This document shows positions 10,358 through 30,500 of a stretch of DNA of 64,000 nucleotides, in pieces (position 1 is the stretch's first letter; each line of letters opens with the position of its first letter). Location of the stretch: the NCBI RefSeq assembly GCF_000510645.1, contig NZ_KI783301.1, positions 238,946 to 302,945 on the forward strand. The letters run 5' to 3'. Source of the stretch: Thermicanus aegyptius DSM 12793 (GTDB lineage Bacteria; Bacillota; Bacilli; Thermicanales; Thermicanaceae). Position numbers and translations under genes: made by a program. Under the pieces are notes generated by a model that worked only from the letters and a program-made list of their open reading frames with translations, did not search any database and was not told the DNA's origin.

Positions 10358-10500
10358 TGAACCGATCAGAACACCATCGGCGCTTAATCACCGGAATCGC
10401 AGATGGCATATCAGATGAGGATCATGAACTCGGTCCATGAGGAAGTGGCTCATCCGTACGGCCATCGATCAATTTAATCGTGTATTGGATGGAGAAACCG

Positions 10501-12213: not shown

Positions 12214-13040
12214 AGATGTTATCCTATATCGAGAGAAATTCCCCGATCCATCGGCTGACCGGGGTGACGAAACTGCTCTCGTTTATCCTATGGTCCACGG
12301 CGGCCATGCTCACGTATGATACCAGAATCTTATTCTTTTTGCTCATGGCGAGCATCGCTGTTTTTGCCGTTTCAAAGGTAAAATGGAGGGAAATCTCCTT
12401 TGTTTTGATCTTTATTCTGATCTTTCTTTTGCTGAACGATGTCGCCATCTATCTCTTTTCACCCCAGGAAGGGGTTAAGATCTACGGAACGAGGCACGTC
12501 TTGTTTAACCTTCCCGGAGATTATGACCTCACCCTGGAGCAGCTCTTTTACCAGTTGAACATCACCATCAAATACTTAACCGTCATTCCCGCCGCCCTTC
12601 TTTTTATCGTTACGACCCATCCCAGTGAATTCGCCTCGTCGCTCAACCGAATCGGAGTAAGTTATCGGATCGCTTATTCCGTCGCTCTCGCTCTTCGTTA
12701 TATCCCCGACATTCAGCGGGATTACCGGAATATCGCCCTTTCCCAGCAGGCCCGGGGGATCGATTTGTCTCGAAAGGAAAAGTTGACCAAACGAATAAAA
12801 AATGCGCTTTCCATCATTATCCCGCTTATCTTTTCCAGCCTGGATCGGATTGAGGTGATTAGCAATGCGATGGAGCTTCGCGGATTTGGAAAAAAGAAGG
12901 AGAGGACCTGGTATAGCGCCCGCCCCTTCACGAAAGGGGATTATATCGCTTTGGGTTTAGTAACCGCCTTTTTCATTCTTTCTCTGATCATCACATTTCA
13001 CGACGGCACACGTTTTTATAATCCTTTTTTGAAACCGTAG
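12204..13040 (+). CDS. ECF transporter transmembrane coupling protein (EcfT)
   Basis: Membrane scaffold that couples ATPase movement to the S component. The 278-aa protein has several hydrophobic segments and the two Ala/Leu-Arg-Gly coupling motifs typical of EcfT, in SQQARGIDL and AMELRGFGKKK, in the cytoplasmic region that contacts the ATPases. The start overlaps the end of the ATPase gene. No clear intrinsic terminator is seen in the 93 nt before the convergent regulator gene. Confidence 0.88.
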   Translation: MAVEMLSYIERNSPIHRLTGVTKLLSFILWSTAAMLTYDTRILFFLLMASIAVFAVSKVKWREISFVLIFILIFLLLNDVAIYLFSPQEGVKIYGTRHVLFNLPGDYDLTLEQLFYQLNITIKYLTVIPAALLFIVTTHPSEFASSLNRIGVSYRIAYSVALALRYIPDIQRDYRNIALSQQARGIDLSRKEKLTKRIKNALSIIIPLIFSSLDRIEVISNAMELRGFGKKKERTWYSARPFTKGDYIALGLVTAFFILSLIITFHDGTRFYNPFLKP

Positions 13041-13133
13041 CGCTTCCGCTTTGAATCATACTTCAAAGTCACCCCTCCCGATTTCTCTTCCCCTGTTTTA
13101 ATCTATTGGGGGATCGATGAACTGTGGTTGATA

Positions 13134-13592
13134 TTATGGCGCATCCTTTCCCGTGAGCCTGGAGAGAAGGACGCCGAGCAGTTCAATGTCCCTCTCCGAA
13201 AGGAGCGTTATCTTTTCGATGAGAGAGAGGATCGCCTCTTGGCGGTGCTTGTCGTCCTCCGTCATATAGTGGCTTGAACGGCAAAAAATTTGCCACTTGT
13301 CGTGAAAAAAAATAAGCCGATCGTTTTTCTCATAGACCTGTTCATTTTCCGGCAACGTCCCCCTTAGGATCCAATCGGAAGAGACGTGAAACGCCTTGGA
13401 GATGTTGAGCAAGATGGCCCCACCGGGGATGCTTTTCCCATTTTCGATATTTGAAATCGTTGCCGACGTGGCATGAATCCGTTGGGCAAATTCCTCCATG
13501 GATAATCCTGCTCCGGTCCGTAATTTCCTCACTCGTTCACCGATCTGTTTTTTTAATTCCTTCTCTCTTTCCTTCACGATCCGTTCCTCCAT
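13134..13592 (-). CDS. XRE-family helix-turn-helix regulator
   Basis: DNA-binding protein of 152 aa. The N-terminal half carries a classic XRE/Cro-CI HTH (about residues 18-75: RVRKLRTGAGLSMEEFAQRI, then SATISNIENGKSIPG). The C-terminal half (about 80-150) is a charged, helical extension with no family I recognise. It is divergent from another small HTH gene at 13753, with a 20-bp palindrome (13629-13648) between them that is a plausible operator. The targets cannot be told from the sequence. Confidence 0.8.
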   Translation of the reverse strand: MEERIVKEREKELKKQIGERVRKLRTGAGLSMEEFAQRIHATSATISNIENGKSIPGGAILLNISKAFHVSSDWILRGTLPENEQVYEKNDRLIFFHDKWQIFCRSSHYMTEDDKHRQEAILSLIEKITLLSERDIELLGVLLSRLTGKDAP

Positions 13593-13628
13593 GGTCCAAA
13601 ATGTAAGGGGAAAATCGAGCAGATCTGG

Positions 13629-13648
13629 ACACTAAATAAAATTAGTGT
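13629..13648. promoter_or_regulatory. Palindromic candidate operator between divergent HTH genes
   Basis: ACACTAA (13629-13635) and TTAGTGT (13642-13648) are perfect 7-bp inverted arms around ATAAAA, 37 nt upstream of the XRE gene start. The AT-rich surroundings repeat related words (ATAAAATTAGT, ATAAAACTAAT), so it probably overlaps the divergent promoters. Which protein binds is unknown. Confidence 0.5.
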
Positions 13649-13752
13649 TAGAATTTATGTATAAATAAAACTAATAAAAGAATCGACGCGATATGCCAAT
13701 ACTCATTATATCAAGAATCAATTCGATCGTCATTTCGGGGAGGAGTTGGCTC

Positions 13753-13983
13753 ATGTCTAAAAAGCAGAAGCCAATCACACCGCTGGGCTGGTTAATTATT
13801 AAGAGATTGGCAGAAAGAAAGATGACGAGGAAAGAATTTTGCCTTAAGGAGAACATCCCGGAGAGCCGCCTGTCCAATTTAATCACAGGGCTTAGACCGG
13901 CGTTGAAGTATCGGAAAAAGGTGATGGATGCCCTCGGGATTAAGGAAGAAGAGATTACGGCCCACGAGGAGAGGAAACTGTGA
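13753..13983 (+). CDS. Small helix-turn-helix protein
   Basis: A 76-aa protein starting MSKKQKPITPLGWLI, whose body is a compact helix-turn-helix of the XRE/phage-regulator type (RKEFCLKENIPESRLSNLI, then a helix with GLRPALKYRKKVMDALGI). The ATG at 13753 is preferred over the upstream in-frame ATG at 13693 because GGGGAGGAG lies just upstream and the extra residues are not HTH-like. It is divergent from the XRE gene at 13592 and precedes sda by 100 nt. Function unknown. Confidence 0.65.
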   Translation: MSKKQKPITPLGWLIIKRLAERKMTRKEFCLKENIPESRLSNLITGLRPALKYRKKVMDALGIKEEEITAHEERKL

Positions 13984-14083
13984 AAGAAATCGGGCATTGG
14001 ATTCCGATCCACTCGGAGTGGGTCATTCACTGGGAAACGCGATGGAAAGTACTTCGCATTACATAGGAGAGAGGGGAGGCATC

Positions 14084-14272
14084 ATGAGGGAGCTATCGGA
14101 TGAGAGCTTAATAGAGGTTTATCGAAAAGCGGTTCAATATCATCTGGACAAGGAATTTATCGATTTGATCCTGGAGGAAATGATGCGGAGGAAACTCTAT
14201 CTTCCAAAGGAACAGAATAGCATGGCGTCTCCGGATCCATCGTCCGAAGGGGAACCTGACAGGCTCTCTTAA
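14084..14272 (+). CDS. sda: Sporulation checkpoint protein Sda
   Basis: Short helical-hairpin inhibitor of the sporulation histidine kinases (KinA/KinB in Bacillus subtilis), which delays sporulation when DNA replication is disturbed. The 62-aa product begins MRELSDESLIEVYRKAVQ and continues LDKEFIDLILEEMMRRKL, matching the Sda pattern over its whole usual length (about 46-52 aa), with an extra Ser/Pro-rich tail of about 16 residues. The ATG at 14084 has GAGAGGGGAGG upstream; a longer frame from 13928 adds only non-homologous residues. A bidirectional terminator follows. Its presence suggests a spore former. Confidence 0.85.
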   Translation: MRELSDESLIEVYRKAVQYHLDKEFIDLILEEMMRRKLYLPKEQNSMASPDPSSEGEPDRLS

Positions 14273-14350
14273 ATTCTCTGATTTTTTTGCAGTTAATGAT
14301 TTCCTCGCTGGTGGGACACAAACGATAAGATCACCCTGGCAAAAAACAAA

Positions 14351-14396
14351 GGCTGCCTGGAGATTCCGTGAGGAACCTCCGGGCAGCCTTTCTTTT
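14351..14396. terminator. Bidirectional terminator between sda and ugpB
   Basis: GGCTGCCTGGAG pairs with CCTCCGGGCAGCC (14351-14388), followed by TTTCTTTTT on the plus strand and, on the minus strand, by TTTGTTTTTT. It therefore serves sda on the plus strand and ugpB on the minus strand. Confidence 0.8.
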
Positions 14397-14405
14397 TGGG
14401 AAGAA

Positions 14406-15809
14406 TTATTTTCCCACCGTTTTGTTATATTCCTGGATCTTGGCCGTGATCTCCTGCGCAGCCTGATCCAAGGCATCTTTAGGTGATTTTTGGCCGTTTA
14501 AGGCTTCTTCTATGGCTCGTTCCGTAATCTGTCTTGCTTCCGGGAAAACACCCATGAGGGCTCCCTGTGTAGCCCGGTTCAGCTTCGTAGCATGGAGTTG
14601 ATCCACGGCAGTCTGGAATTGAGGGAACTTCCGCATATTCTCCTTCAGGATCGGTTCATCATAGGCCGCTTTGGTGATGGGGAAATATCCCGTGTTAATA
14701 TGCCACTGGGCTTGTTGAGCGGGAGAGACGAGGAACTTAATAAATTCCCAGGCGGCTTTCTGCTCTTCTTCCGGCCGATTGTTCAAGATATAGAGGCTGG
14801 CTCCTCCTACGATAACGCCTCCATCCTTTGCGTCTTGGGGTCGAGGGAGGAAGGCGGTACCTACTTCAAACTTATTTCCCACCGCATCGACGATCCCTCG
14901 GAGAGAGGCGGTGGAATCCAGGGTCATGGCCACTTGTCCCCCTACGAAGGCCGCCTTCGTGTCATTGGTCTTCCTTCCCAGGTTTAGCATCACCTTATCA
15001 TCCACCATCTTCTTCCACCATTCCAGGGTTTTTACCCCTGCATCGCTGTTTACTAAGGATTTTGTCGCCATTCCATCCCGCCCGTTTCCATGATCAACCA
15101 GTTCCGCTCCCTGATTGGCGAAGAATTGCTCCATAAACCAACCGTAGATGGCAAAAGAGGCGCCGTATTTTCCATCCTTGGTTAACGCCTTGGCCGCCTG
15201 AGCTACCTCTTCATAGGTTCGGGGCGGTTTATCCGGATCAAGTCCGGCCGCTTTAAACATATCCTTGTTGTAGTAGAGGATGGGATTGGAGGTGTTGAAG
15301 GGCATAGAATTTAATTGGCCATCGATGGTGTAATAGCCCAGAATGTTTTCTTCCAGCCGGGAGAGGTCAAAGTGATCGGCATCCACAAACGTCTGGATGG
15401 GGGTAATCGCCTTGGAGTCGATCATAAACCGGCTGCCGATCTCATAGACCTGCATGAGGGTAGGGCCTGAATTACTTCCCAAGGAAGCTTTCAGCTTATT
15501 GAGCGCTTCGTCATAGGTACCCTGGAAGACCGCCTCCACTTGGATATCGGCGTGGGAGGCGTTAAAATCGCTCACGATCTGGTCGACGGCTTTTCCCAGT
15601 TCGCCGCCCATGGCGTGCCACCAAATCACCTTTATCGGTTTTTTCTCCGACATTCCGGAGTTCTGGGTGTTCTGGCTGTTGGCAGGCTCCGTTCCGCCGT
15701 CATTTTGGGTACCCGTCTGGGCAGGGGCTTGTCCGCAGCCGCTTAAGAGCAGAACGAAGAAGCTTAACAAAATAAGAAGAGAGCGCATTTTGCCAAAAGA
15801 CCGATTCAT
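14406..15809 (-). CDS. ugpB: Glycerol-3-phosphate/sugar ABC transporter substrate-binding lipoprotein
   Basis: Extracytoplasmic solute-binding protein (family 1) of 467 aa. A lipoprotein signal peptide is clear: basic start MNRSFGKMRS, hydrophobic stretch, then lipobox LLLSGC with Cys25 as anchor, followed by a Thr/Gly/Asn-rich linker. The mature part shows IKVIWWHAMGGELGKAVDQI, QVYEIGSRFM and PFNTSNPILYYNKDMF, closest in pattern to UgpB, so glycerol-3-phosphate or its diesters is the likely ligand, although related sugars cannot be excluded. GGAGGA lies upstream of the start. It is the third gene of ugpA-ugpE-ugpB on the minus strand. Confidence 0.82.
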   Translation of the reverse strand: MNRSFGKMRSLLILLSFFVLLLSGCGQAPAQTGTQNDGGTEPANSQNTQNSGMSEKKPIKVIWWHAMGGELGKAVDQIVSDFNASHADIQVEAVFQGTYDEALNKLKASLGSNSGPTLMQVYEIGSRFMIDSKAITPIQTFVDADHFDLSRLEENILGYYTIDGQLNSMPFNTSNPILYYNKDMFKAAGLDPDKPPRTYEEVAQAAKALTKDGKYGASFAIYGWFMEQFFANQGAELVDHGNGRDGMATKSLVNSDAGVKTLEWWKKMVDDKVMLNLGRKTNDTKAAFVGGQVAMTLDSTASLRGIVDAVGNKFEVGTAFLPRPQDAKDGGVIVGGASLYILNNRPEEEQKAAWEFIKFLVSPAQQAQWHINTGYFPITKAAYDEPILKENMRKFPQFQTAVDQLHATKLNRATQGALMGVFPEARQITERAIEEALNGQKSPKDALDQAAQEITAKIQEYNKTVGK

Positions 15810-17881: not shown

Positions 17882-17898
17882 TGTAATATAATATAACA
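17882..17898. promoter_or_regulatory. GlnR box I upstream of the nif promoter
   Basis: The 17 bases TGTAATATAATATAACA match the GlnR/TnrA consensus TGTNA-N7-TNACA at every defined position. It sits about 80 bp upstream of the inferred nif -10 element, the position of an activating site in Paenibacillus nif promoters (established knowledge of that genus). The intergenic region 17680-18111 has no gene; the stretch 17713-17880 shows nothing I can name. Confidence 0.8.
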
Positions 17899-17975: not shown

Positions 17976-17986
17976 TGGTATATAAT
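17976..17986 (+). promoter_or_regulatory. Likely nif operon promoter (-10 region)
   Basis: TGGTATATAAT provides a -10 (TATAAT at 17981-17986, or TATATA at 17979 with an extended TG). The -35 region is poor (TTAGGA around 17956), which fits dependence on an activator bound at the upstream GlnR box. No sigma-54 -24/-12 element is seen here. Confidence 0.55.
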
Positions 17987-18069: not shown

Positions 18070-18086
18070 TGTTAGGAAATATGACA
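18070..18086. promoter_or_regulatory. GlnR box II in the nif leader
   Basis: TGTTAGGAAATATGACA is a second perfect TGTNA-N7-TNACA match, located downstream of the inferred transcription start and 25 bp before the nifB start codon. In this position bound GlnR would block transcription, so a repressing role under nitrogen excess is inferred. Confidence 0.8.
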
Positions 18087-18111: not shown

Positions 18112-19527
18112 ATGAATGAAAATTCTTGTTCCATGGTGGAAGGAACGGGAGCGCATGGAAAATCGACCTTAAACCTGCCGGAAGAAGTCGTTAACCGAGT
18201 CAAAAGGCATCCTTGTTACAGTGAAGAAGCTCATCATTTTTTTGCCCGTTTGCATGTGGCGGTCGCGCCGGCTTGCAATATTCAGTGCAAATACTGTAAC
18301 CGGAAGTATGACTGTGTGAATGAAAGCAGGCCAGGCGTTACCAGCGAGGTTCTTACACCGGAGGAGGCGGTGGAGAAAGTATTGGCGGTGGGCACCGTGA
18401 TAAAGCAAACCAGCGTCGTCGGCATCGCAGGTCCGGGAGATCCTTTGGCCAACCCGAAGCGAACCTTTAAAACCTTTTCCCTTTTGCGGGAAAAAGCGCC
18501 GGATATGAAATTATGTTTGAGCACAAACGGTCTGGCTTTACCGGATTACATCGATGCGATAAAGGAGTTGGGGATTGATCATGTCACCATTACCATAAAT
18601 GCCGTAGATCCTGAGATCGGGAAACATATATACAGGTATGTGGTATGGAAAGGAAAAAAGCTGACCGGATACGATGCGGCGGCGGTATTGCTGGAACGGC
18701 AACTTACCGGATTGGAAAAACTGGTGGAAAACGATATTCTTGTCAAGGTTAATTCGGTGCTGATTCCAGGCATCAATGATGCGCATATGAAAGAAGTGTC
18801 CCAAATCATACGGAAGAAAGGGGCGTTTTTACACAATATTATGCCCCTGATCATCGCCGACGGTTCAGATTTTGAAAGGGAAGGACGAAGGCCCGCCTTG
18901 ATGGAGGATGTGGCATTGGCGCAACAAAGCTGCGAACGAGAAAGCCGCTTGATGAGGCACTGCCGTCAATGCAGGGCCGATGCGGTGGGGTTATTGGGAG
19001 AAGAACGGAGTGAAGAGTTTACAAAAGAAAAAGTCCGTCAGCTATCGGCAACCTATGATGTTTCTTCCCGCCAAGCTTTACATGCCGAGCTGGATGAACG
19101 GATTGAAAAAATGAAAGAAGCCCGTAAAAAAGCGGCGCGACTCATGGAACTGAGGGCAAGAGCCGATTTTATCCCCTTTAACGTAGCGGTCGCAACAAAA
19201 GGGGATGGAAAAGTAAACCAACATTTTGGGCAAGCCAAAGAATTTCAAATCTTCGAGGTCTCCAGGAAAGGCTTAAAATTTATAACGGTTCGGCGAGTTT
19301 CCTCTTACTGCTCCGGAAAGGAAACATGCGGCGATCATATCGAACGGATGGGTGAGATTGCCGGGATGCTCGGGGATTGTCGGTATCTTTTATGCAAGCG
19401 CATCGGAACGGAACCGATGAATCGTCTCCGAGAATACGGCATCGAATCGGTGATGGCCAATGGCTCGATTGATGATGAACTTCTTCGTCTTGCGGAACGG
19501 CAATATCCCGTCCAAAACCAGGTTTAA
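18112..19527 (+). CDS. nifB: Nitrogenase cofactor biosynthesis radical SAM protein NifB
   Basis: Makes NifB-co, the 8Fe-9S-C precursor of FeMo-cofactor, from two 4Fe-4S clusters and SAM. The 471-aa protein has a radical SAM core (motif ACNIQCKYCNRKYDC, CxxxCxxC plus an extra Cys; then GPGDPLANP) and a C-terminal NifX-like cofactor-binding domain (from about residue 360: FNVAVATKGDGKVNQHFGQA). This two-domain form is the usual long NifB. AGGAGAATG overlaps the start. It is the first gene of the operon, directly behind the two GlnR boxes. Confidence 0.97.
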   Translation: MNENSCSMVEGTGAHGKSTLNLPEEVVNRVKRHPCYSEEAHHFFARLHVAVAPACNIQCKYCNRKYDCVNESRPGVTSEVLTPEEAVEKVLAVGTVIKQTSVVGIAGPGDPLANPKRTFKTFSLLREKAPDMKLCLSTNGLALPDYIDAIKELGIDHVTITINAVDPEIGKHIYRYVVWKGKKLTGYDAAAVLLERQLTGLEKLVENDILVKVNSVLIPGINDAHMKEVSQIIRKKGAFLHNIMPLIIADGSDFEREGRRPALMEDVALAQQSCERESRLMRHCRQCRADAVGLLGEERSEEFTKEKVRQLSATYDVSSRQALHAELDERIEKMKEARKKAARLMELRARADFIPFNVAVATKGDGKVNQHFGQAKEFQIFEVSRKGLKFITVRRVSSYCSGKETCGDHIERMGEIAGMLGDCRYLLCKRIGTEPMNRLREYGIESVMANGSIDDELLRLAERQYPVQNQV

Positions 19528-19611
19528 GCCTTTAGTGCGACGATAATTTTTTAAAAAATCAGTCCATTCGTCCCGGATCATTCTATTTTATCGAAGGAAG
19601 ATGAGGAAAGG

Positions 19612-20763
19612 ATGAAAATTTATTTTTGCGATACCACTCTTCGAGATGGGGAACAAGCGGCTGGGGTTTCTTTTTATCCGGAAGAGCGCATAGCCCTAGC
19701 CAAAGCGCTTGACCGGGCCGGCTTGGATCTGATCGAGGTTGGGATCCCGGCGATGGGAGAGGCGGAACAGGAGAATATCGCCGCCATCCTCTCCCTCCCC
19801 ATGCAGGCGAAGCGAAGCACATGGAATCGGGCGCGCCGGGAGGATATCGATGCTTCGCTTAAGTGTGGAGCTCAAATCGTTCACATCGCTTTGCCCGTTT
19901 CCGATCGAATGCTTCGCTGGAAATTGGGGACGGATTACCGCGGGGCAAAACTCCGCTTACTTGAAGTTATCGACTATGCGAGGGGAAGAGGGCTGGAAGT
20001 ATCGGTGGGGTTTGAGGATGCGTCCAGGGCGAAACCTTCCTTTTTAAGGGAACTGGCCGAAGCGATTGAACCGTTCGGAGTGATGCGGATCCGTTTTGCG
20101 GACACGGTGGGAATCCTTACCCCGTGGGATACGGAGCTATTAATCGGGCATTTGCGGAAATCAACATCGATCCCCATCGAATTTCACGGACATAACGATT
20201 TTGGTTTGGCGGTGGCCAATTCCCTGGCGGCTGTGCGCAAGGGAGCCGATTGGGTAAGTACGACCGTTTTAGGGCTCGGTGAACGGACGGGAAACGCTCC
20301 GATGGAGGTTGTAGCCCTTGCGGTAAAGCGATTGCTTGACTTTGATGTGGAACTTCGCTTCGATTCCTTTCAGCCCTTAGCCGAGATGGTTGCCACAATG
20401 TCCGGAAGAGCCATTCCTGAACAAGCGCCCGTCGTTGGGTCCCATGCTTTTACCCACGAGTCCGGAATTCATGTGGATGGTTTATTGAAATCGAGCGATA
20501 TGTACGAGTCTTATCCTCCGGATGTGGTGGGGCGAAAGCGCATTTTCTTATACGGAAAACATTCCGGAAGAAATGGTGTGCGAAAAGTTTTAGAAAATGC
20601 CGGTGAGACGCCAACGCCGGAAGCGGTGGAACTTCTTCTTGAGGAAGTTCGAAAATTTTCAAGAGAATGTAAACAATCGTTAGAAGCGCGCCAAATCCTT
20701 GATCTCTATTACCGGGAGGTACGACCCAAAATTTCCTTTCAGACGATCGGTCAGACAAGTTGA
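19612..20763 (+). CDS. nifV: Homocitrate synthase NifV
   Basis: Condenses acetyl-CoA and 2-oxoglutarate to homocitrate, the organic ligand of FeMo-co. The 383-aa protein has the DRE-TIM metallolyase start FCDTTLRDGEQAAGVSF, the HGHNDFGLAVANSLAA metal-binding motif and the ESGIHVDGLLK region. Length matches NifV rather than the longer LeuA. It lies 84 nt behind nifB; its placement before nifH differs from the Paenibacillus order, where nifV is last. Confidence 0.94.
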   Translation: MKIYFCDTTLRDGEQAAGVSFYPEERIALAKALDRAGLDLIEVGIPAMGEAEQENIAAILSLPMQAKRSTWNRARREDIDASLKCGAQIVHIALPVSDRMLRWKLGTDYRGAKLRLLEVIDYARGRGLEVSVGFEDASRAKPSFLRELAEAIEPFGVMRIRFADTVGILTPWDTELLIGHLRKSTSIPIEFHGHNDFGLAVANSLAAVRKGADWVSTTVLGLGERTGNAPMEVVALAVKRLLDFDVELRFDSFQPLAEMVATMSGRAIPEQAPVVGSHAFTHESGIHVDGLLKSSDMYESYPPDVVGRKRIFLYGKHSGRNGVRKVLENAGETPTPEAVELLLEEVRKFSRECKQSLEARQILDLYYREVRPKISFQTIGQTS

Positions 20764-20792
20764 TCGGGCGATTGGAAAGGGAAGGGGGAAAA

Positions 20793-21623
20793 ATGAACGG
20801 GGAGGTGGCTCTATTGGAAGTCGGGTTGTTTAGTGCAAGGGGGCTTTTGACAAGAATTATATCCGCCATCCTGGAAGAGGACGGTCATCACTTATACTCC
20901 AGCCGTTACTGGTCGATTTTTGAGAAAGGGGCAAAAAATCATTTTTTTGACCTTTTACTTTACGATTGCCCCGGCCAATGTCCGTTTTCAAAAAAACGGT
21001 GTCTTATTCTTGCCGATATGCTGAGAACACCTTGTGTCGTCATCAGTCCCGACCCCGACCATCTCAAAAACGATTTGAGGTGGTCAAGCGATTTTGCCGT
21101 CTTGCAAGATCCATTTTATCCAGTAGAACTCCTCCAAATCATCCGGGAAATGGTAAACCGGTATGATCCGATTCAAAAAAACAGGCCGGCACCTTTTCGT
21201 GAACATCATCGAAAACAACTGGTTATTGCAGATGAAAAGATGATTGAACTATCACCCGTCATATTTCTTGACACAATTGCGGAAGTGTTGATTCACGAAG
21301 GGCTTCGGTTACAGCTTTCATCGAGGGAATACCGGTTGTTGGAAACCTTGCTTCGCAACGAGGGAAAAGTGGTTGATTATGATACGCTTTTAACCGCCAT
21401 CTGGGGTGATGAAGACAAAGGAAGTTTCGATAATTTGTACACCGTCGTTCGCTCTTTGCGAAAAAAACTCGGGGACAAAGGAGATCCGGACGATATCATC
21501 CAGAATAAATATGGCCGGGGGTATGTGTTGAAGCGGCGGGAAGTGAAAGAAAATGAAAAATGTTATGGAACGACTCAATCCTTACAAATAGAGAAAAAAG
21601 CAAAAAAAGGGAATTCTTATTAA
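20793..21623 (+). CDS. Winged-helix regulator with degenerate, Cys-rich receiver domain, in the nif operon
   Basis: A 276-aa protein I cannot assign to a named nif gene. The C-terminal third (about residues 165-255) is an OmpR/PhoB-type winged helix: LRLQLSSREYRLLETLLRNE, then a recognition-helix region NLYTVVRSLRKKLGDKG and wing NKYGRGYVL. The N-terminal ~120 residues have a receiver-like layout, but the N-terminal acidic pair is missing (VALLEVGLF) and the conserved Lys is Asp106 in LQDPF; only Asp58 (LLLYDC) keeps the phospho-acceptor position. Cys59, Cys63, Cys70 and Cys81 cluster right after it. The ATG at 20793 has GAAGGGGG upstream; a TTG at 20760 would overlap nifV. A redox or Fe-S sensing regulator of nif is an inference. 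Confidence 0.85.
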   Translation: MNGEVALLEVGLFSARGLLTRIISAILEEDGHHLYSSRYWSIFEKGAKNHFFDLLLYDCPGQCPFSKKRCLILADMLRTPCVVISPDPDHLKNDLRWSSDFAVLQDPFYPVELLQIIREMVNRYDPIQKNRPAPFREHHRKQLVIADEKMIELSPVIFLDTIAEVLIHEGLRLQLSSREYRLLETLLRNEGKVVDYDTLLTAIWGDEDKGSFDNLYTVVRSLRKKLGDKGDPDDIIQNKYGRGYVLKRREVKENEKCYGTTQSLQIEKKAKKGNSY

Positions 21624-21704
21624 AACGGCGGTTTCATGTAAGGATATTTAACATACAACGTGGTATGGTTATGGCAGGCCGGTGCTGTTGTAAGCTGCCG
21701 ATGA

Positions 21705-22634
<930 letters not shown>

Positions 22635-22659
22635 ATCTACCATCACGGAGGTGGGGCAC

Positions 22660-24084
22660 ATGGCTGAGGTTGGGGGACAGAACGTGATCGAGGAATTGTT
22701 GGAAGCCTATCCCGAAAAAGCGCGAAAAGAACGGAAGAAACATTTTGAAATCAATGATATTGAAAAGATTTCCACCGGGAAGTGCTCCATCAAATCAAAC
22801 GTAAAATCCCGTCCCGGTGTCATGACGGTTCGCGGATGCGCCTACGCCGGTTCTAAAGGGGTGGTGTGGGGACCGATTAAGGATATGGTTCATATCAGTC
22901 ACGGGCCGGTTGGCTGCGGCCAGTACAGCTGGGGTACCCGCCGGAACTACAGCAATGGAGTCCTAGGTGTCAATAATTTTGTGGCCATGCAGGTGACCAG
23001 CGACTTCCAGGAACGGGACATCGTATTCGGCGGAGACAAGAAACTGGAAAAAGTATGCCGGGAAATTAAGGAAATGTTTCCCCTTGCGAAGGGGATCACC
23101 ATTCAATCCGAATGTCCCATCGGGTTGATCGGGGATGATATTGAAGCCGTGGCGAAAAAGATGACGAAGGAATTGGGCATACCGGTCGTTCCCGTTCGAT
23201 GCGAAGGCTTTCGGGGTGTGAGCCAGTCCCTGGGCCATCACATTGCCAACGATTCGATTCGGGACCATGTTTTGGGGACCCGGGATCTAAATGAACCGGG
23301 CCCGTACGACGTGGCGATCATCGGGGATTACAATATCGGTGGGGATGCCTGGGCGGCCAGAATTTTGCTCGAAGAAATGGGCCTTCGGGTGATTGCCCAA
23401 TGGTCGGGGGATGGAACCCTCAATGAATTGGCCATCACCCACAAGGCGAAGCTAAACCTGATCCACTGTTATCGTTCTATGAACTACATCGCACGACACA
23501 TGGAAGAGAAATACGGCATCCCTTGGATGGAGTATAATTTCTTCGGCCCCACGAAAACGATTGAAAGCCTGCGCAAGATAGCGGCCTTCTTTGATGATCA
23601 GATTCAGGAACAAGCGGAACGGGTGATCGCGAAATATAAGCCGGAGATGGATGCGGTCATTGAAAAATATCGCCCGCGGCTTGAGGGGAAAAAAGTGATG
23701 CTATTGGTTGGCGGCTTGCGTCCACGCCATACGGTGGGCGCCTATGAAGATCTGGGGATGGAAGTGGTGGGAACCGGATACGAGTTTGCCCATAAGGATG
23801 ACTATGAGCGCACGTATAAGGAACTGAAAGAGGGTGCGGTGATTTACGACGATCCCTCCGAATACGATCTGGAATACCTGGCCAAAGCGCTCGGGGTAGA
23901 CTTGGTGGGTTCGGGCATTAAGGAGAAATATGTGTTTCAAAAAATGGGGCTTCCTTTCAGACAGATGCATTCCTGGGATTATAGTGGCCCCTACCATGGC
24001 TTTGACGGGTTTAAAGTTTTTGCCCGGGATATGGATATCGCCATGAATAGCCCGGTGTGGAATCTCATGCAAGTTCCATTTTAA
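22660..24084 (+). CDS. nifD: Nitrogenase molybdenum-iron protein alpha chain NifD
   Basis: Alpha subunit of MoFe dinitrogenase, carrying FeMo-co and half of the P-cluster ligands. The 474-aa protein shows P-cluster cysteines in [18 protein letters not shown] and [12 protein letters not shown], the FeMo-co Cys in [13 protein letters not shown] and the FeMo-co His in [12 protein letters not shown]. The length fits Mo-type NifD, and no vnfG/anfG delta gene is present, arguing against an alternative nitrogenase. The ATG at 22660 follows GGAGGTGGGG; longer frames from 22513 overlap nifH. Confidence 0.98.
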
Positions 24085-24099
24085 GGGAGGTGAGGAGTT

Positions 24100-25635
24100 A
24101 TGGCCAAAAACGTGGAGATCAAAGACCATAACACGTTATTCCAATCGGAAGAGTATATGAAATCGGCGGAAAAGAAGATGGAGTTTGAGGCCCCTTGCTC
24201 CCTGGAAGAAGTGGAAGATACGGCGGCCTATTTAAAAACGGAAGAATATAAAGAAAAAAATTTTGCCCGGGAAGCTCTTACCATTAATCCGGCGAAAGCC
24301 TGCCAGCCCCTCGGCGCGGTTTTGGCCGCCTTGGGTTTTGAAAAAACGTTGCCTTTTGTCCACGGCTCACAAGGATGTGTGGCTTATTTCCGGAGCCATT
24401 TTGCCAGGCATTTTAAAGAACCGGTGCCGACGGTATCCACCTCGATGACCGAAGATGCGGCTGTCTTTGGCGGACTTCGCAACTTGATCGAAGGATTGGA
24501 AAACGCCGTTTCCTTGTATAAACCGGATATGGTGGCCGTGAGCACCACTTGCATGGCGGAGGTGATCGGAGATGACCTGCAGGCATTTATTGAAACGGCC
24601 AGGAACGAGGGGGCGATTAGCAAATCCTTCCCCGTGCCCTTTGCCAATACGCCCAGTTTCGTCGGCTCCCACATTGTCGGCTACGACAGCATGATGAAGT
24701 CGATTCTAAGTTATCTGAACGGGCGGGAGGGCGATGGGGAGAAGATGGCGGCTGAGGCGGCGGAAAAGATTAACGTTATCCCCGGATTTGAACCGTATAC
24801 GGGCAACATCAGGGAGGCAAAACGGATCCTTGACCTGATGGATGTTCGCTACACCATTCTGGGAGATCATAGCGATATGCTCGATTCGCCGGCAAACGGA
24901 GAGTATCGGACCTATTACGGCGGAACGAAGCTTTCAGACGCGGCTTATGCCTCAAGGGGAAAAGGAACGATCGCATTGCAAAAGTATTCCACGAGGAAAA
25001 CGGCGAAATATATCGAAGAAAATTGGGGCCATCCGTTCATTGCCGGTCCGATTCCCATCGGCATTCGAAACACCGATGCGCTCCTCATGCGAATCAGCGA
25101 ATTAACCGGCAAACCGATTCCCCAATCGCTAAAAGATGAAAGGGGACGTGTGGTGGACGCGATGACCGATTCCCATCCATATCTTCAAGGGAAACGAGTG
25201 GCGATGGCCGGCGATCCGGACCTCTTGTTGGGGCTCATCTCGTTGTCCCTGGAGTTGGGAATTGAACCGGTTCATATCCTTTGTACCAATGGCGATAAGG
25301 AATTTGAAGAAGAGGCACAGCGATTGCTTGCAGAAAGCCCCTACGGTTTGGATGGAAAGGTTTATGTGGGGAAAGACTTATGGCACTTAAGATCTCTGTT
25401 ACTCACGGACCCCGTTGATTTTGCCATCGGCAGCACCTTTTTAAAATTCGCGGCAAAAGATGCGAATATTCCATTGGTTCGTGTCGGCTTCCCCATTTTT
25501 GACCGCCATCATATGCACCGCTATCCGATTATCGGATACCAGGGAACATTAAACCTCTTATCCTTAATGGTCAATATGGTTTTGGAGCGTTTGGACGAGG
25601 AGGCACCGGGTCATAGCTTTGATGTGGTCCGTTAA
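24100..25635 (+). CDS. nifK: Nitrogenase molybdenum-iron protein beta chain NifK
   Basis: Beta subunit of MoFe dinitrogenase, supplying the remaining P-cluster ligands. The 511-aa protein has the N-terminal extension typical of NifK, then INPAKACQPLGAV, HGSQGCVAYFRSHFARHFKE and STTCMAEVIGDDL with the three P-cluster cysteines, and the C-terminal GFPIFDRHHMHRYPIIGYQG signature. It starts 16 nt after nifD behind GGGAGGTGAGG. Confidence 0.98.
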   Translation: MAKNVEIKDHNTLFQSEEYMKSAEKKMEFEAPCSLEEVEDTAAYLKTEEYKEKNFAREALTINPAKACQPLGAVLAALGFEKTLPFVHGSQGCVAYFRSHFARHFKEPVPTVSTSMTEDAAVFGGLRNLIEGLENAVSLYKPDMVAVSTTCMAEVIGDDLQAFIETARNEGAISKSFPVPFANTPSFVGSHIVGYDSMMKSILSYLNGREGDGEKMAAEAAEKINVIPGFEPYTGNIREAKRILDLMDVRYTILGDHSDMLDSPANGEYRTYYGGTKLSDAAYASRGKGTIALQKYSTRKTAKYIEENWGHPFIAGPIPIGIRNTDALLMRISELTGKPIPQSLKDERGRVVDAMTDSHPYLQGKRVAMAGDPDLLLGLISLSLELGIEPVHILCTNGDKEFEEEAQRLLAESPYGLDGKVYVGKDLWHLRSLLLTDPVDFAIGSTFLKFAAKDANIPLVRVGFPIFDRHHMHRYPIIGYQGTLNLLSLMVNMVLERLDEEAPGHSFDVVR

Positions 25636-25658
25636 TCTTTATCAAAGGGGGGAGGAAC

Positions 25659-27023
25659 GTGAGGCGTCAAGTGTTAGAAGCGCTGGAAGAGCCGGCTTGT
25701 GAGCATAGTACAAACGAGAATCTTAAAGTTTGTGCGAGACCTAAGCCGGGCCAAGCCTCAGGAGGCTGTTCATTTGATGGGGCGCAAATCGCGCTTCTCC
25801 CCATCGCCGATGCGGCTCATCTGGTCCATGGACCTTTGGGATGCAGCGGAAACAGTTGGGAAGGAAGAGGCAGCCTGTCGTCAGGCCCTCACCTTTACCA
25901 ATATGGACTTACGACCGATCTGAAAGAATCGGAAATTATCTTCGGCGGTGAAAAAAAATTACGGGAAGCGATTGGGGAAATCATGGAGCGTTTTTCACCT
26001 CCCGCCGTATTTGTTTATTCGACCTGTGTTACCGCATTAATTGGAGACGATTTAGAGGCGATCTGCCGGGAAGAAACGAGGAAATGGGGCGTTCCGGTCA
26101 TTCCGGTAAACAGCCCGGGATTTGTGGGAAGCAAAAATTTGGGGACGCGTCTTGCCGGAGAAACACTCTTCCAATATGTTATCGGTACCTCCGATCCTCC
26201 GGAAACGACTCCCTACGACATCAATTTAATAGGAGAATACAATATTGCCGGAGAGATGTGGGAGATAAAGGAATTGTTGGACAAGGTGGGGATCCGAATC
26301 TTATCGCGAATTACAGGAGACGGGCGGTTTCAGGAAATCCGGTGGGCGCATCATGCCAAGGTAAACATGGTGGTTTGTAGCCGGGCATTGATCAATTTAG
26401 CCCGCAAAATGGAGGAACATTACCAGATCCCCTATTTTGAAGGTTCCTTCTACGGGGCGGGAGAAACCGGATCTTCCTTGCGGAAAATCGCCGGTTTGCT
26501 GAAAGACCGGGAATTGGAACGGCGAGTAGAGGAGCTGATTCAAGAGGAAGAGAAAAAGTTGCATCGTGACCTGCTTCAGTATCGCCCGGTCTTAAAGGGG
26601 AAAAAGGTCGTTTTGTATACGGGAGGAGTAAAAAGCTGGTCCGTCATCAGCGCTTTACAGGAGCTGGGGATGGAAGTGGTGGCGGTGGGAACGAACAAAA
26701 GCACCCAAGAGGATATTGCCCGCATTAAAGAGAGGGTAGGAGCCGATACGGAGCTGATCGATGAGGGGGGATCCGGCAGCATTTTAAAAGCCGTTCGATC
26801 CAAAAAAGCAGATATGATGATCGCAGGAGGGCGCAACATGTATGTGGCGCTAAAGGAAAAGATCCCTTTTTTGGAGATTAATCAAGAGCGCCACACCGCT
26901 TATGCGGGCTATACAGGGTTAAAAAGGTTGGCGAAACATATCGCCCATACCCTTTCCCACCCCGTATGGCAATTGGCCCATAAAAAAGCGCCGTGGTGTG
27001 AGGGGTGGGCTGATGACCGTTAA
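25659..27023 (+). CDS. nifE: Nitrogenase cofactor scaffold protein NifE
   Basis: With NifN forms the scaffold on which NifB-co matures to FeMo-co. NifD paralogue of 454 aa: GPLGCSGNSWEGRG, VYSTCVTALIGDDL and GEYNIAGEMWEIK are diagnostic, and the FeMo-co Cys/His pair of NifD is not reproduced. The start is GTG with GGGGGGAGG upstream. It lies 24 nt behind nifK and overlaps nifN by 11 nt. Confidence 0.96.
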   Translation: MRRQVLEALEEPACEHSTNENLKVCARPKPGQASGGCSFDGAQIALLPIADAAHLVHGPLGCSGNSWEGRGSLSSGPHLYQYGLTTDLKESEIIFGGEKKLREAIGEIMERFSPPAVFVYSTCVTALIGDDLEAICREETRKWGVPVIPVNSPGFVGSKNLGTRLAGETLFQYVIGTSDPPETTPYDINLIGEYNIAGEMWEIKELLDKVGIRILSRITGDGRFQEIRWAHHAKVNMVVCSRALINLARKMEEHYQIPYFEGSFYGAGETGSSLRKIAGLLKDRELERRVEELIQEEEKKLHRDLLQYRPVLKGKKVVLYTGGVKSWSVISALQELGMEVVAVGTNKSTQEDIARIKERVGADTELIDEGGSGSILKAVRSKKADMMIAGGRNMYVALKEKIPFLEINQERHTAYAGYTGLKRLAKHIAHTLSHPVWQLAHKKAPWCEGWADDR

Positions 27024-28311
27024 AATAAAGAAAAAATCCGTATCGGTCAATCCGTTAAAAGTAAGCCAACCGTTGGGAGGTTCCCTAGCCCTGCAAGGGT
27101 TTTATCGTTCCATTCCCATCCTCCACGGTTCACAGGGATGCGCTTCATTTGCCAAGACGCTTTTAACCCGGCATTACCGGGAGACGATCGCCATGCAAAC
27201 CACAGCGCTGCAAGAGATGAACGTGATCTTCGGGGCCGGAAAATCATTGTTTGAGGCGTTGGATACCATCATTCATAAACTTAAACCCGATCTTATCGGG
27301 GTTCTCAGTACCGGTTTAACCGAAGTGGCCGGCGATGATCTGGTCGGAAACATTAACGAGTACATCAAAGAGAGAAACATGGAACAACCTTTCATCATTC
27401 CCGTAAGTCTCCCCGATTACCAAGGGTCGCTGGAATCGGGTTATGCAAAAACGGTGGAGGCGATCGTTGGGCGCCTTTTGGAATCAAAGGATCAATGGCC
27501 GACGGAGATCGTGCGGGGGCGAGTCAATCTATTGCCTGCCTCCCACTTGACGCCGGGAGATGTGATGGAAATCAAAGAAATTATCCGAGCGTTCGGATTG
27601 GAGGTGATTTCCATCCCCGATTTATCCACTTCCTTATCGGGACATCTCATCACCGGTTTTTCTCCCCTTAGCCGTGGAGGAATTCCCCTCGATGCTCTTC
27701 CTAAAATGATTACGGCCGAACGAACCCTTGTGATCGGAGCCAGCATGGAGAAGGTGGCGAAAAAAATCGAAGAAGCCGCAGAGATCCCATATCATGTTTT
27801 TCCCAGCCTGACCGGGCTGGAAGCAAGTGATCGGTTTTTCACCTTCCTTCAATCCGTGACAGGTCATGAGATCCCCTTGAAGTATGTATGGCAACGTGAA
27901 AATCTGCTGGACAGCATGCTTGATGCCCATTTTTACTTTGCAGGCAAGTCGGCGGTGGTCGCCCTGGAACCGGACCTCCTTTATTCGGTCATCACTTGGC
28001 TGCATGAGATGGGAGTGGATTTGAAAGGAATCGTGACAACGGAATCTTCTCCGGTGCTTATGCAATTGGATGAAGAAATTTGGGTGGGGGATTTGGGAGA
28101 TCTTGAAGAATGGGCCGACGGGGTTGACCTTTGGATAAGCAATTCCCATGGAAAACGAGGGGCCAAACGCAAAGGAGCGGTCTTTATGCCTTTGGGATTT
28201 CCGATTTTTGACCGGATTGGGGCTTCGTTATTTACCGGCATAGGTTACCGGGGCACGACGGAGCTGGTGATTCAGGTAGGCAATCTACTGATGGAGAAAG
28301 AGGAGGTATAA
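27013..28311 (+). CDS. nifN: Nitrogenase cofactor scaffold protein NifN
   Basis: Partner of NifE in FeMo-co assembly and NifK paralogue, 432 aa. It begins near VSVNPLKVSQPLGGSLALQG, has HGSQGCASFAKTLLTRHYRE and STGLTEVAGDDLVG (the second P-cluster cysteine position is lost, as usual for NifN) and ends with GFPIFDRIGA. The ATG at 27013 overlaps the nifE end; an upstream GTG at 26998 is an alternative. Confidence 0.95.
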   Translation: MTVKIKKKSVSVNPLKVSQPLGGSLALQGFYRSIPILHGSQGCASFAKTLLTRHYRETIAMQTTALQEMNVIFGAGKSLFEALDTIIHKLKPDLIGVLSTGLTEVAGDDLVGNINEYIKERNMEQPFIIPVSLPDYQGSLESGYAKTVEAIVGRLLESKDQWPTEIVRGRVNLLPASHLTPGDVMEIKEIIRAFGLEVISIPDLSTSLSGHLITGFSPLSRGGIPLDALPKMITAERTLVIGASMEKVAKKIEEAAEIPYHVFPSLTGLEASDRFFTFLQSVTGHEIPLKYVWQRENLLDSMLDAHFYFAGKSAVVALEPDLLYSVITWLHEMGVDLKGIVTTESSPVLMQLDEEIWVGDLGDLEEWADGVDLWISNSHGKRGAKRKGAVFMPLGFPIFDRIGASLFTGIGYRGTTELVIQVGNLLMEKEEV

Positions 28312-28317
28312 TCTCCC

Positions 28318-28707
28318 ATGAAAGTGGCGTTTGCGACCGAAGATGGATCCTTAGTCAACAGCCATTTTGGTCAGTGTAACACCTTTATCATCTATGAAGT
28401 GACCCTGGACGGTTACAGACTGGACGGGGTAAGGGAAATCATGGGAAAAAAAGAGGAAGAGGGGGATGAATATGGTCGCCTTGATCGACGGATTGATGCC
28501 ATTGAAGATTGCACGCTGTTATTTATCACTCAAATCGGCCCGTCCGCCGCGGCAAGAGTGACCCGCAAAAAGATTATGCCGATTAAGGTGGAAGAGGGGA
28601 CCCCCATCCTCCAACAATTGGATCGCTTATTGGTCATGCTGCATACAAAACCTCCTCTCTGGCTGGCTAAGGCATTAAAGCACCAAAAAGGAGAGGAAGA
28701 GAGTTGA
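28318..28707 (+). CDS. nifX: FeMo-cofactor carrier protein NifX
   Basis: Small cofactor-binding protein that shuttles NifB-co/FeMo-co precursors. The 129-aa protein begins MKVAFATEDGSLVNSHFGQC, the characteristic opening of the NifX/NifY/VnfX family, also seen in the C-terminal domain of the NifB encoded here. It starts 7 nt after nifN and overlaps the next gene by 4 nt. Confidence 0.94.
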   Translation: MKVAFATEDGSLVNSHFGQCNTFIIYEVTLDGYRLDGVREIMGKKEEEGDEYGRLDRRIDAIEDCTLLFITQIGPSAAARVTRKKIMPIKVEEGTPILQQLDRLLVMLHTKPPLWLAKALKHQKGEEES

Positions 28708-29153
28708 CGGGTGAAGAGAGAACCACAGCACATTCTCCCGCATTTCGGGAATCCCTTGTACAAGTGATCGATGCTTATGACACCCTGTCCGTCTTTCGGA
28801 AATGGACGGAAGAAGAAAAGATTAAAAAATGGTTTCTATCACCGGAAGAAGAAAAGAAAAAGACGGAATCCTGCGGGCTGACCAACGAAAAAATAGAAAG
28901 GCAAATCGGCCTTTTCTTTCAGGCCGTCGCATTGGCGATTGAAAAACGCTCGGGGAAAATGACAAGCAGTATGATTGAAATCGATCATGAAGGGATGGGG
29001 CGGGCCATCGTCTATTCCGGTCGGACCATTTTGATCAACCAAGGATTGCGCGGCATAAAGCAGTTTATGTTTACTCATGTTGAAGACCTGATGAATAAGG
29101 GGGCCAGGTTTGTAGAAAAAGGGCTTTCCCAGTTGGAGAAACCCGGCATTTAA
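28704..29153 (+). CDS. NifX-associated nitrogen fixation protein (DUF269)
   Basis: A 149-aa protein found next to nifX in many diazotrophs; its precise biochemical role is not settled. Family features are visible in DTLSVFRKWTEEEKIKKWFL, IEIDHEGMGRAIVYSGRTIL and the C-terminal LMNKGARFVEKGL. TTG start overlapping nifX (TTGA), with GGAGAGGAAGAG upstream. Distinct from NifW, which is encoded further down. Confidence 0.9.
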   Translation: MTGEERTTAHSPAFRESLVQVIDAYDTLSVFRKWTEEEKIKKWFLSPEEEKKKTESCGLTNEKIERQIGLFFQAVALAIEKRSGKMTSSMIEIDHEGMGRAIVYSGRTILINQGLRGIKQFMFTHVEDLMNKGARFVEKGLSQLEKPGI

Positions 29154-29166
29154 ATGGGGTGGAAAA

Positions 29167-29979
29167 ATGGGGGGAAGAGAAGTGGATAAGGCCGGACCGG
29201 ATGGAACCGTGGATCCCCACGAACGTTATCGAAGGCAGATCAAACTGATCGGAGAGAAGGGCCAGGAAAAATTAAAAAATTCAACGGTCTTTATTGCCGG
29301 AATCGGCGGACTGGGAGGAACGGCGGCGATTTATTTAGCCGCCGCCGGAATCGGCAAATTGATCATAGCCCATGAAGGAACGGTGTCCCTGCCCGATTTA
29401 AACCGACAAATTCTAATGGACAGCAGGAGAATCGGAGAGGAAAGAGTTGCGTTGGCCGTGGAAAACCTTCGTCGCATCAATCCAAATGTGATCATCGAAG
29501 CACACCCCGAACGGATTCGCTATGAACGGGCAAAGGCATGGGTTGAATCGTCCGATATTGTCGTCGATGCCCGCTATGATTTTTTGGAACGGTACGCGTT
29601 GAACAAGGCGTGCATAGATTGGAACAAGCCGATGGTGGAAGCGGCCATGTATGGGTTTGAAGTATCCATCACGACGATATGGCCGGGAAAGACCGCATGT
29701 CTTAACTGCATTTATCCGGAGCAATCGTATTCATGGGAGCCCTACGGTTTTCCGGTATTGGGAGCTACGTCGGGGATCGCCGGGGCTTATGCGGCGATTG
29801 AGGTGATAAAGGTAATCACCGGAATCGGGAAGCCTTATTTTAATCAAATGCACCGTTTTGACACGTTACATTTTCATTCGTATACGGTTTCGTTCAAACG
29901 GAACGAACGGTGCTCACATTGCGGTGAACAGGAGGGCGAATCTTATGAATCGGTCTATGAACGATTTGCACGACGCTGA
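29167..29979 (+). CDS. hesA: HesA/MoeB/ThiF-family adenylyltransferase
   Basis: E1-like enzyme of the MoeB/ThiF fold common in Gram-positive and cyanobacterial nif clusters, thought to help supply molybdenum cofactor parts or sulfur. The 270-aa protein has the nucleotide-binding GIGGLGGTAAIYLAAAGIG, the DLNRQIL loop, ARYDFLERYALN and a zinc site made of CLNC and CSHC. It is 14 nt after the DUF269 gene and overlaps nifW by 35 nt. Confidence 0.92.
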   Translation: MGGREVDKAGPDGTVDPHERYRRQIKLIGEKGQEKLKNSTVFIAGIGGLGGTAAIYLAAAGIGKLIIAHEGTVSLPDLNRQILMDSRRIGEERVALAVENLRRINPNVIIEAHPERIRYERAKAWVESSDIVVDARYDFLERYALNKACIDWNKPMVEAAMYGFEVSITTIWPGKTACLNCIYPEQSYSWEPYGFPVLGATSGIAGAYAAIEVIKVITGIGKPYFNQMHRFDTLHFHSYTVSFKRNERCSHCGEQEGESYESVYERFARR

Positions 29980-30256
29980 GGATTTCTTTCATTTCTACCG
30001 GCTCACCTATGATCCAAAGGTTTTGTCCATCGCCAGGTTGCACATTCTTCAACGCTATAAACAGTATTTGGAACAAAATGATTTACACGAAGGGGACTCT
30101 ACGGATCCCGAGATTTGGGGGAAAAAAAGATCCTTATTAAATCAAGCCTATCACGATTTTATCCGTTCAACCCCCTTGCAAGAAAAGGTTTTTCCCGTTT
30201 TTTACCGGAGGAGATCCTGCTTCATTTCCTTTTGCAGGATAGAGGGGGAACCCTAA
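29945..30256 (+). CDS. nifW: Nitrogenase-protective protein NifW
   Basis: A 103-aa protein resembling NifW, linked in other diazotrophs to stability and maturation of MoFe protein under oxygen exposure. Key stretch: DAEDFFHFYRLTYDPKVL followed by ARLHILQRYKQYLEQ, matching the family signature. The ATG at 29945, inside the end of hesA and behind GGAGGG, is chosen over a longer frame from 29858 whose first residues are just hesA out of frame. Confidence 0.85.
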   Translation: MNRSMNDLHDAEDFFHFYRLTYDPKVLSIARLHILQRYKQYLEQNDLHEGDSTDPEIWGKKRSLLNQAYHDFIRSTPLQEKVFPVFYRRRSCFISFCRIEGEP

Positions 30257-30257
30257 T

Positions 30258-30500
30258 TTGCTCGGGAAATTTGATCTTGAAGATATTGTAAGGACAACGA
30301 AAAAAATTCGTAATGACGGAACTTACCCCGGGATGGATCGGGGCGCGATCATCATCCGTGAAGGTGAAGTAGGAACCATTGTAGACTATGGATATTTCTT
30401 GCAGGATATATTGGTTTATACCGTTTTTTTTAACCGGGGACTCTTGGTCGGATGTTTGGAAAATGAACTGGAATTGGTTGAGAGGGGGAATCGGAAATAA
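30258..30500 (+). CDS. nifZ: NifZ family protein
   Basis: An 80-aa protein matching the NifZ core: IRNDGTYPGMDRG, REGEVGTIVDYGYFLQDI and YTVFFNRGLLVGCLENEL. NifZ assists formation of the P-cluster in other diazotrophs. The TTG start lies 2 nt after the nifW stop with AGAGGGGGA upstream. It is the last gene of the nif operon and its 3' end forms part of the terminator hairpin. Confidence 0.88.
   Translation: MLGKFDLEDIVRTTKKIRNDGTYPGMDRGAIIIREGEVGTIVDYGYFLQDILVYTVFFNRGLLVGCLENELELVERGNRK

Follow-up and report, generated by a model that had tools for sequence, protein, structure and literature searches.

Organization of the nif cluster

The window (the whole 64 kb stretch of DNA that was analysed) harbors a nif cluster in which all genes run in the forward direction, in the order nifB, nifV, a regulator gene, nifH, D, K, E, N, X, DUF269, hesA-like, nifW and nifZ.

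18112..19527, + strand: nifB (TIGR01290, E 6.5e-179)
19612..20763, + strand: nifV, homocitrate synthase (TIGR02660 is the best match, 454 bits, just below the 463 cut-off)
20793..21623, + strand: orphan OmpR-type regulator gene (intact ORF, 276 aa; two other genomes have a homologue in the equivalent position)
21732..22634, + strand: nifH (TIGR01287, 447 bits, above cut-off)
22641..30500, + strand: nifD, K, E, N, X, DUF269, hesA-like ThiF, nifW and nifZ (ORFs; nifD start approximate)

Downstream of nifH, Pfam searches identified the DUF269, ThiF, NifW, NifZ and Nitro_FeMo-Co domains; nifK, E, N and X align to the clusters of the relatives described below, and nifD was assigned by position and ORF sequence. 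The regulator ORF starts 29 nt past the nifV stop (20763) and ends before nifH (homologous start 21732), and no account of this gene turned up in a literature search. A previous sequence-only reading had placed it between nifV and nifH in the same direction, had recognized an OmpR-type DNA-binding domain in its product and had considered it nif-linked, yet outside the standard nif genes; the ORF, Pfam and NCBIfam results agree with all of this.

An OmpR-type regulator with a degenerate receiver

The regulator product combines the C-terminal winged helix of canonical OmpR/PhoB response regulators (Trans_reg_C, PF00486) with a receiver-like N-terminal half and an unusual set of cysteines.

20817..21161, + strand: diverged receiver-like domain, residues 9-123 (hhalign 95.7% to 22 receivers; (beta-alpha)5 model)
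20964..21002, + strand: DC59PGxC63PFxxxRC70 motif, residues 58-70, replacing the loop normally found after the phosphoacceptor strand (invariant in the three relatives)
21306..21530, + strand: winged-helix DNA-binding domain, residues 172-246 (Pfam PF00486, E 3.1e-19)
21561..21563, + strand: codon of Cys257 in the C-terminal tail, the fourth invariant cysteine (three-member alignment)

Trans_reg_C is the sole Pfam domain of the protein, and its best NCBIfam match, RpaB, is obtained through the same winged helix. Pfam detected neither the AAA+ sigma-54 interaction domain of NifA-type activators nor a ferredoxin match, the latter unlike CnfR-type Fe-S nif activators (CnfR carries a ferredoxin-like domain), and Response_reg was not detected even at E up to 1. 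Nonetheless, when the N-terminal 124 residues (as a profile of the three relatives) were compared with 22 receivers, hhalign returned a probability of 95.7% and a score of 51.5, while the best of 30 column-shuffled controls scored 22.0, with a probability of at most 9.6%. This alignment pairs Asp58 with the phosphoacceptor and Asp106 with the Lys of the KPF motif, and the positions of the acidic pair are occupied by Ser14 and Ala15. Asp58 is invariant, and none of the three members retains the acidic pair or the conserved Lys, which bears out the earlier description of a receiver devoid of the acidic pair and with Asp106 instead of Lys.

Structure predictions were of low to moderate confidence. 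The full-length model (overall pLDDT 59.8) displays a (beta-alpha)5 pattern, and one model out of five contains blocks that reach 70-80 pLDDT. Full-length OmpR-type PDB structures match the full-length model, KdpE first and RitR and HP1043 lower. The isolated N-terminal model (pLDDT 44) was too poor for use, so that the receiver fold rests mainly on the profile comparison. Judging from this comparison, the N-terminal half is a highly diverged receiver; no kinase gene lies beside the regulator or in any of the three nif clusters, and the regulator is probably phosphorylation-independent.

A conserved CX3CX6C motif and a tail cysteine

The cysteines Cys59, Cys63, Cys70 and Cys81, which the earlier reading had noticed directly after Asp58, are all present as described, and conservation among homologues had been proposed as the check on them. 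The stretch DC59PGxC63PFx3RC70L is identical in all three proteins and thus Cys59, Cys63 and Cys70 are kept in both relatives, but Cys81 is replaced by Thr in both, and we reject the four as one site. Cys257, which that reading did not name, is conserved instead, although the C-terminal tail around it is variable. The conserved set therefore consists of CX3CX6C plus Cys257, with all other cysteines varying among the three proteins, and the three-member alignment holds no conserved cysteine between residues 71 and 256, linker included. CX3CX6C is not among the standard Fe-S motifs known to us.

Cysteines are well conserved in general, and four of the five being kept in an alignment where 113 of 251 ungapped columns are invariant is suggestive, not decisive, given that just three members are known and their invariance reflects little divergence. 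As the models are poor, contact between Cys257 and the other three cysteines cannot be read from them.

Relatives, probable rarity and loss together with nif

One relative (50% identity to the regulator) was found in genome G044, and the other (55% identity) in Bu37 (G073), a metagenome-assembled Alicyclobacillaceae genome. Each is located between nifS and nifH, directly upstream of the latter, in a complete nif cluster that holds nifB, V, S, H, D, K, E, N, X, DUF269, hesA-like, nifW and nifZ, and the position directly upstream of nifH is thus common to three genomes of three genera. No further member was seen in samples of 399 genomes of the class and 398 of the phylum, nor among 398 class genomes when the N-terminal domain alone served as query (all three samples overlap), and plasmid records gave no match by DNA or protein. 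A scan of 84,980 species returned Bu37 as the sole relative; the regulator is likely rare, but this is not proved, since the same scan missed G044. Distant OmpR-type matches (L029-L031) were rejected as members because they match by the winged helix or by generic receiver features alone. One of them (L029, 1042-1875), from the same class, is an OmpR-type protein with an odd receiver located beside a thiL-like gene, with no nif gene adjacent.

Within the class, 3 of the 17 nifH-bearing genomes carry the regulator and 14 do not, and all three carriers have nifH. In most of the other nif loci that we read (Paenibacillus-type clusters) nifB directly precedes nifH. Genome G025, which shares its genus with G044, has neither the regulator nor a place among the genomes with nifH; it is probably Kyrpidia tusciae. 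Its locus matches that of G044 at 94% up to the nifB promoter, where the match breaks off, and transposase- and integrase-like genes follow (L083, about 10400-14874). The regulator was thus lost along with the nif cluster, of which the nifB promoter is all that is left. Kyrpidia tusciae is reported as not fixing N2, and Kyrpidia spormannii FAVT5, shown to grow on N2 in tests with at most 5% O2 (PMC7248562), is a likely carrier species of the regulator. Going by this distribution, the regulator is inherited solely with the nitrogenase genes and is thus probably nif-dedicated.

GlnR-type sites and a shared promoter element

Perfect matches to the GlnR/TnrA consensus (TGTNAN7TNACA) occur exactly three times in the 64 kb window (0.4 expected), all of them in the nif cluster.

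17882..17898, + strand: GlnR/TnrA-type site preceding the presumed nifB promoter, comparable to site I of Paenibacillus (perfect consensus match)
17981..17986, + strand: TATAAT, candidate nifB promoter -10, between two GlnR-type sites (consensus match only)
18070..18086, + strand: GlnR/TnrA-type site 25 nt before the nifB ATG, comparable to site II of Paenibacillus (perfect consensus match)
21615..21646, + strand: composite element TCTKA-N17-NGTMAKGATW upstream of nifH (sole match in the 3.66 Mb genome)
21637..21653, + strand: GlnR/TnrA-type site TGTAAGGATATTTAACA, 78 nt before the nifH ATG (perfect consensus match)

The window's genome encodes a glnR homologue (55% identical), as do all five genomes tested. 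A single GlnR-type site precedes nifB in Bu37, and a near match precedes nifH in G044, whose nif cluster (about 1580-1594 kb) is only ~5 kb away from glnR (1600 kb; L042-L043, L072). Two such sites flank the nif promoter of Paenibacillus polymyxa, where they are activating or repressing (PMC6191146), and nitrogen control of the present cluster is best explained by GlnR acting, in a Paenibacillus-like scheme, through the predicted sites. The previous reading, which saw no nifA or sigma-54 element in the region, had overlooked the three perfect operators of GlnR type; with these operators and GlnR encoded in the genome, the operon does have a known regulator. This accounts for nitrogen control, and the orphan regulator would be a second input.

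Alignment of the regions upstream of nifH revealed the GlnR-type box, a ATGGTGATA-like stretch downstream of it and, at a fixed distance of 17 nt upstream, TCTGA. Across four whole genomes, the derived pattern TCTKA-N17-NGTMAKGATW matches only nif promoters or the G025 remnant, i.e., the nifB and nifH promoters of G044 and G073, the nifH promoter of the window's genome (G000) and the orphan nifB promoter of G025, while the reversed control pattern matches nowhere in them. As the pattern was built from five of its sites, these match by construction; what the scan adds is that no other sites match, together with the G025 copy, itself homologous. In the window's own genome nifB is not preceded by the element, and, because the element overlaps the GlnR box, it may belong to the promoter or to GlnR binding. 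A consensus promoter scan did not rise above chance.

Other candidate regulators of nif expression

No sigma-54 site above chance was found in the nif region, as the sequence-only reading had also held. Of the three strong sigma-54-type activators in the window's genome, judged by their sequences, one resembles a response regulator of the NtrC type, another is AcoR-like and encoded beside acetone carboxylase, and the third is a PAS-containing activator; NifA/sigma-54 control was rejected as there is no site above chance and no NifA-like protein among the activators inspected, and NifA-type control of the cluster is unlikely. The window's genome encodes two strong Crp/Fnr proteins, neither of them an obvious Fe-S Fnr (the best one lacks cysteine altogether), and no classical cysteine-bearing Fnr was seen among the best Crp/Fnr matches, which leaves room for a sensor such as the regulator described here.

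A putative cysteine-based sensor acting alongside GlnR

A regulator kept together with nif across three genera, with its phosphorylation residues gone and four cysteines invariant, points most simply to a second, chemical input, for which oxygen or redox state is most likely as the natural candidate. We postulate a nif-dedicated, OmpR-derived regulator whose receiver has become a cysteine-based oxygen or redox sensor working alongside GlnR, a reading that we regard as evenly balanced between right and wrong. In this scheme the receiver, having lost the acidic pair and the Lys, would work as a cysteine-based sensor in which CX3CX6C, in the loop after the former phosphoacceptor strand, probably together with Cys257, would form an Fe-S cluster site or a thiol switch. 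At low oxygen, with the site intact or reduced, the winged helix would bind DNA close to the nifH promoter, its probable target being the conserved TCTKA half-element that precedes the GlnR box by 17 nt, and the bound regulator would allow nif transcription; the same element also precedes nifB in the two relatives. GlnR would give the nitrogen signal at its own boxes. The gene, its domains and invariant residues, its co-inheritance with nif, the GlnR boxes, glnR and the shared promoter element are observed, and we infer the identity of the element-binding protein, the redox or oxygen sensing, the cofactor and the direction of control.

The bolder version, in which the receiver would be an Fe-S oxygen sensor, with the cluster in its former phosphorylation loop (CX3CX6C plus the tail cysteine), of a NifA-free, GlnR-controlled nif system and the first OmpR-type regulator of this kind, is offered tentatively, and we would rather expect it to fail than to hold. 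The other chemistry of the scheme taken alone, a RitR-like, metal-free thiol switch in which cysteine oxidation leads to a disulfide or dimer and altered DNA binding, has a proven precedent, as RitR is an OmpR-type receiver turned redox sensor (PMC5965902), and the PDB fold matches of the model include RitR chains. However, the RitR cysteine is single and sits in the linker, whereas the conserved ones here are found in the receiver loop and the tail, and we consider a pure thiol switch unlikely. We think just as little of the chances of a nif-dedicated orphan OmpR-type regulator that senses no oxygen, its cysteines holding structural zinc or stabilizing the fold and its action being constitutive or exerted through contact with GlnR or RNA polymerase. 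The degenerate receiver, the overlap of element and GlnR box at the nifH promoter and the fit of four invariant cysteines to tetrahedral zinc all speak for it, but oxygen-labile nitrogenase usually has an oxygen input, and the best Crp/Fnr matches of the window's genome include no classical cysteine-bearing Fnr (both arguments are circumstantial). Very improbable, finally, is a regulator still phosphorylated on Asp58 by a kinase encoded elsewhere in the genome, with incidental cysteines, as the invariance of Asp58 and its alignment with the phosphoacceptor are countered by the replacement of the acidic pair and Lys in all members and by clusters devoid of kinase genes.

Comparison with known systems

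The streptococcal redox sensor RitR derives from an OmpR-type response regulator (PMC5965902) and resembles the nif-linked protein in its receiver and OmpR winged helix, in dispensing with ordinary phosphorylation and in cysteine chemistry as the signal (proposed, in our case). The two differ in that RitR has one linker cysteine and controls iron uptake, whereas the regulator, which has no redox cysteine of the RitR type in the linker ahead of its winged helix, has three receiver-loop cysteines plus one in the tail and belongs to a nif cluster. In cyanobacteria, CnfR is a low-oxygen activator of nif genes that is itself nif-cluster-linked, and ChlR, likewise a low-oxygen activator, senses oxygen through a [4Fe-4S] cluster (PMC5943405, PMC13421787), i.e., the mechanism proposed here as one option, but both have an architecture other than receiver plus OmpR winged helix. 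RpaB is likewise OmpR-type, with a single conserved cysteine, Cys59, and a C59A change ruled this residue out as a direct redox sensor (PMC13421787); RpaB has a kinase partner, whereas the regulator is without an adjacent one. Thus, the RitR precedent implies that OmpR-type receivers can turn into redox sensors, and that of RpaB that a conserved cysteine by itself is not enough. Control by GlnR in Paenibacillus (PMC6191146) shares with the present cluster a pair of GlnR-type sites on either side of the presumed nifB promoter as well as a glnR gene, but there nifB runs straight into nifH without such a regulator.

Orphan OmpR-type regulators are already known; one that is nif-dedicated and bears an unusual cysteine motif is new. 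HP1043, CosR and mycobacterial GlnR are also orphan, OmpR-type and phosphorylation-independent, and the full-length model matches their structures, but we know of none with CX3CX6C in its receiver and of none encoded in a nif cluster. To our knowledge, how nif expression is coupled to oxygen in Gram-positive fixers without NifA is poorly understood. The question becomes directly testable with a small candidate that is nif-linked, has conserved cysteines and lies next to mapped GlnR-type boxes and a shared promoter element. If true, the proposed sensing would represent a second way for a receiver domain to become a direct chemical sensor.

Sequence comparisons of the flanking genes gave differing affinities. 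NifB is closest to that of Bu37 (74%, vs 49-54% in Paenibacillus-type clusters), and NifH is closer to those of Paenibacillus-type clusters (84-87% vs 79-80%); a mosaic history of the cluster (18112-22634) is possible.
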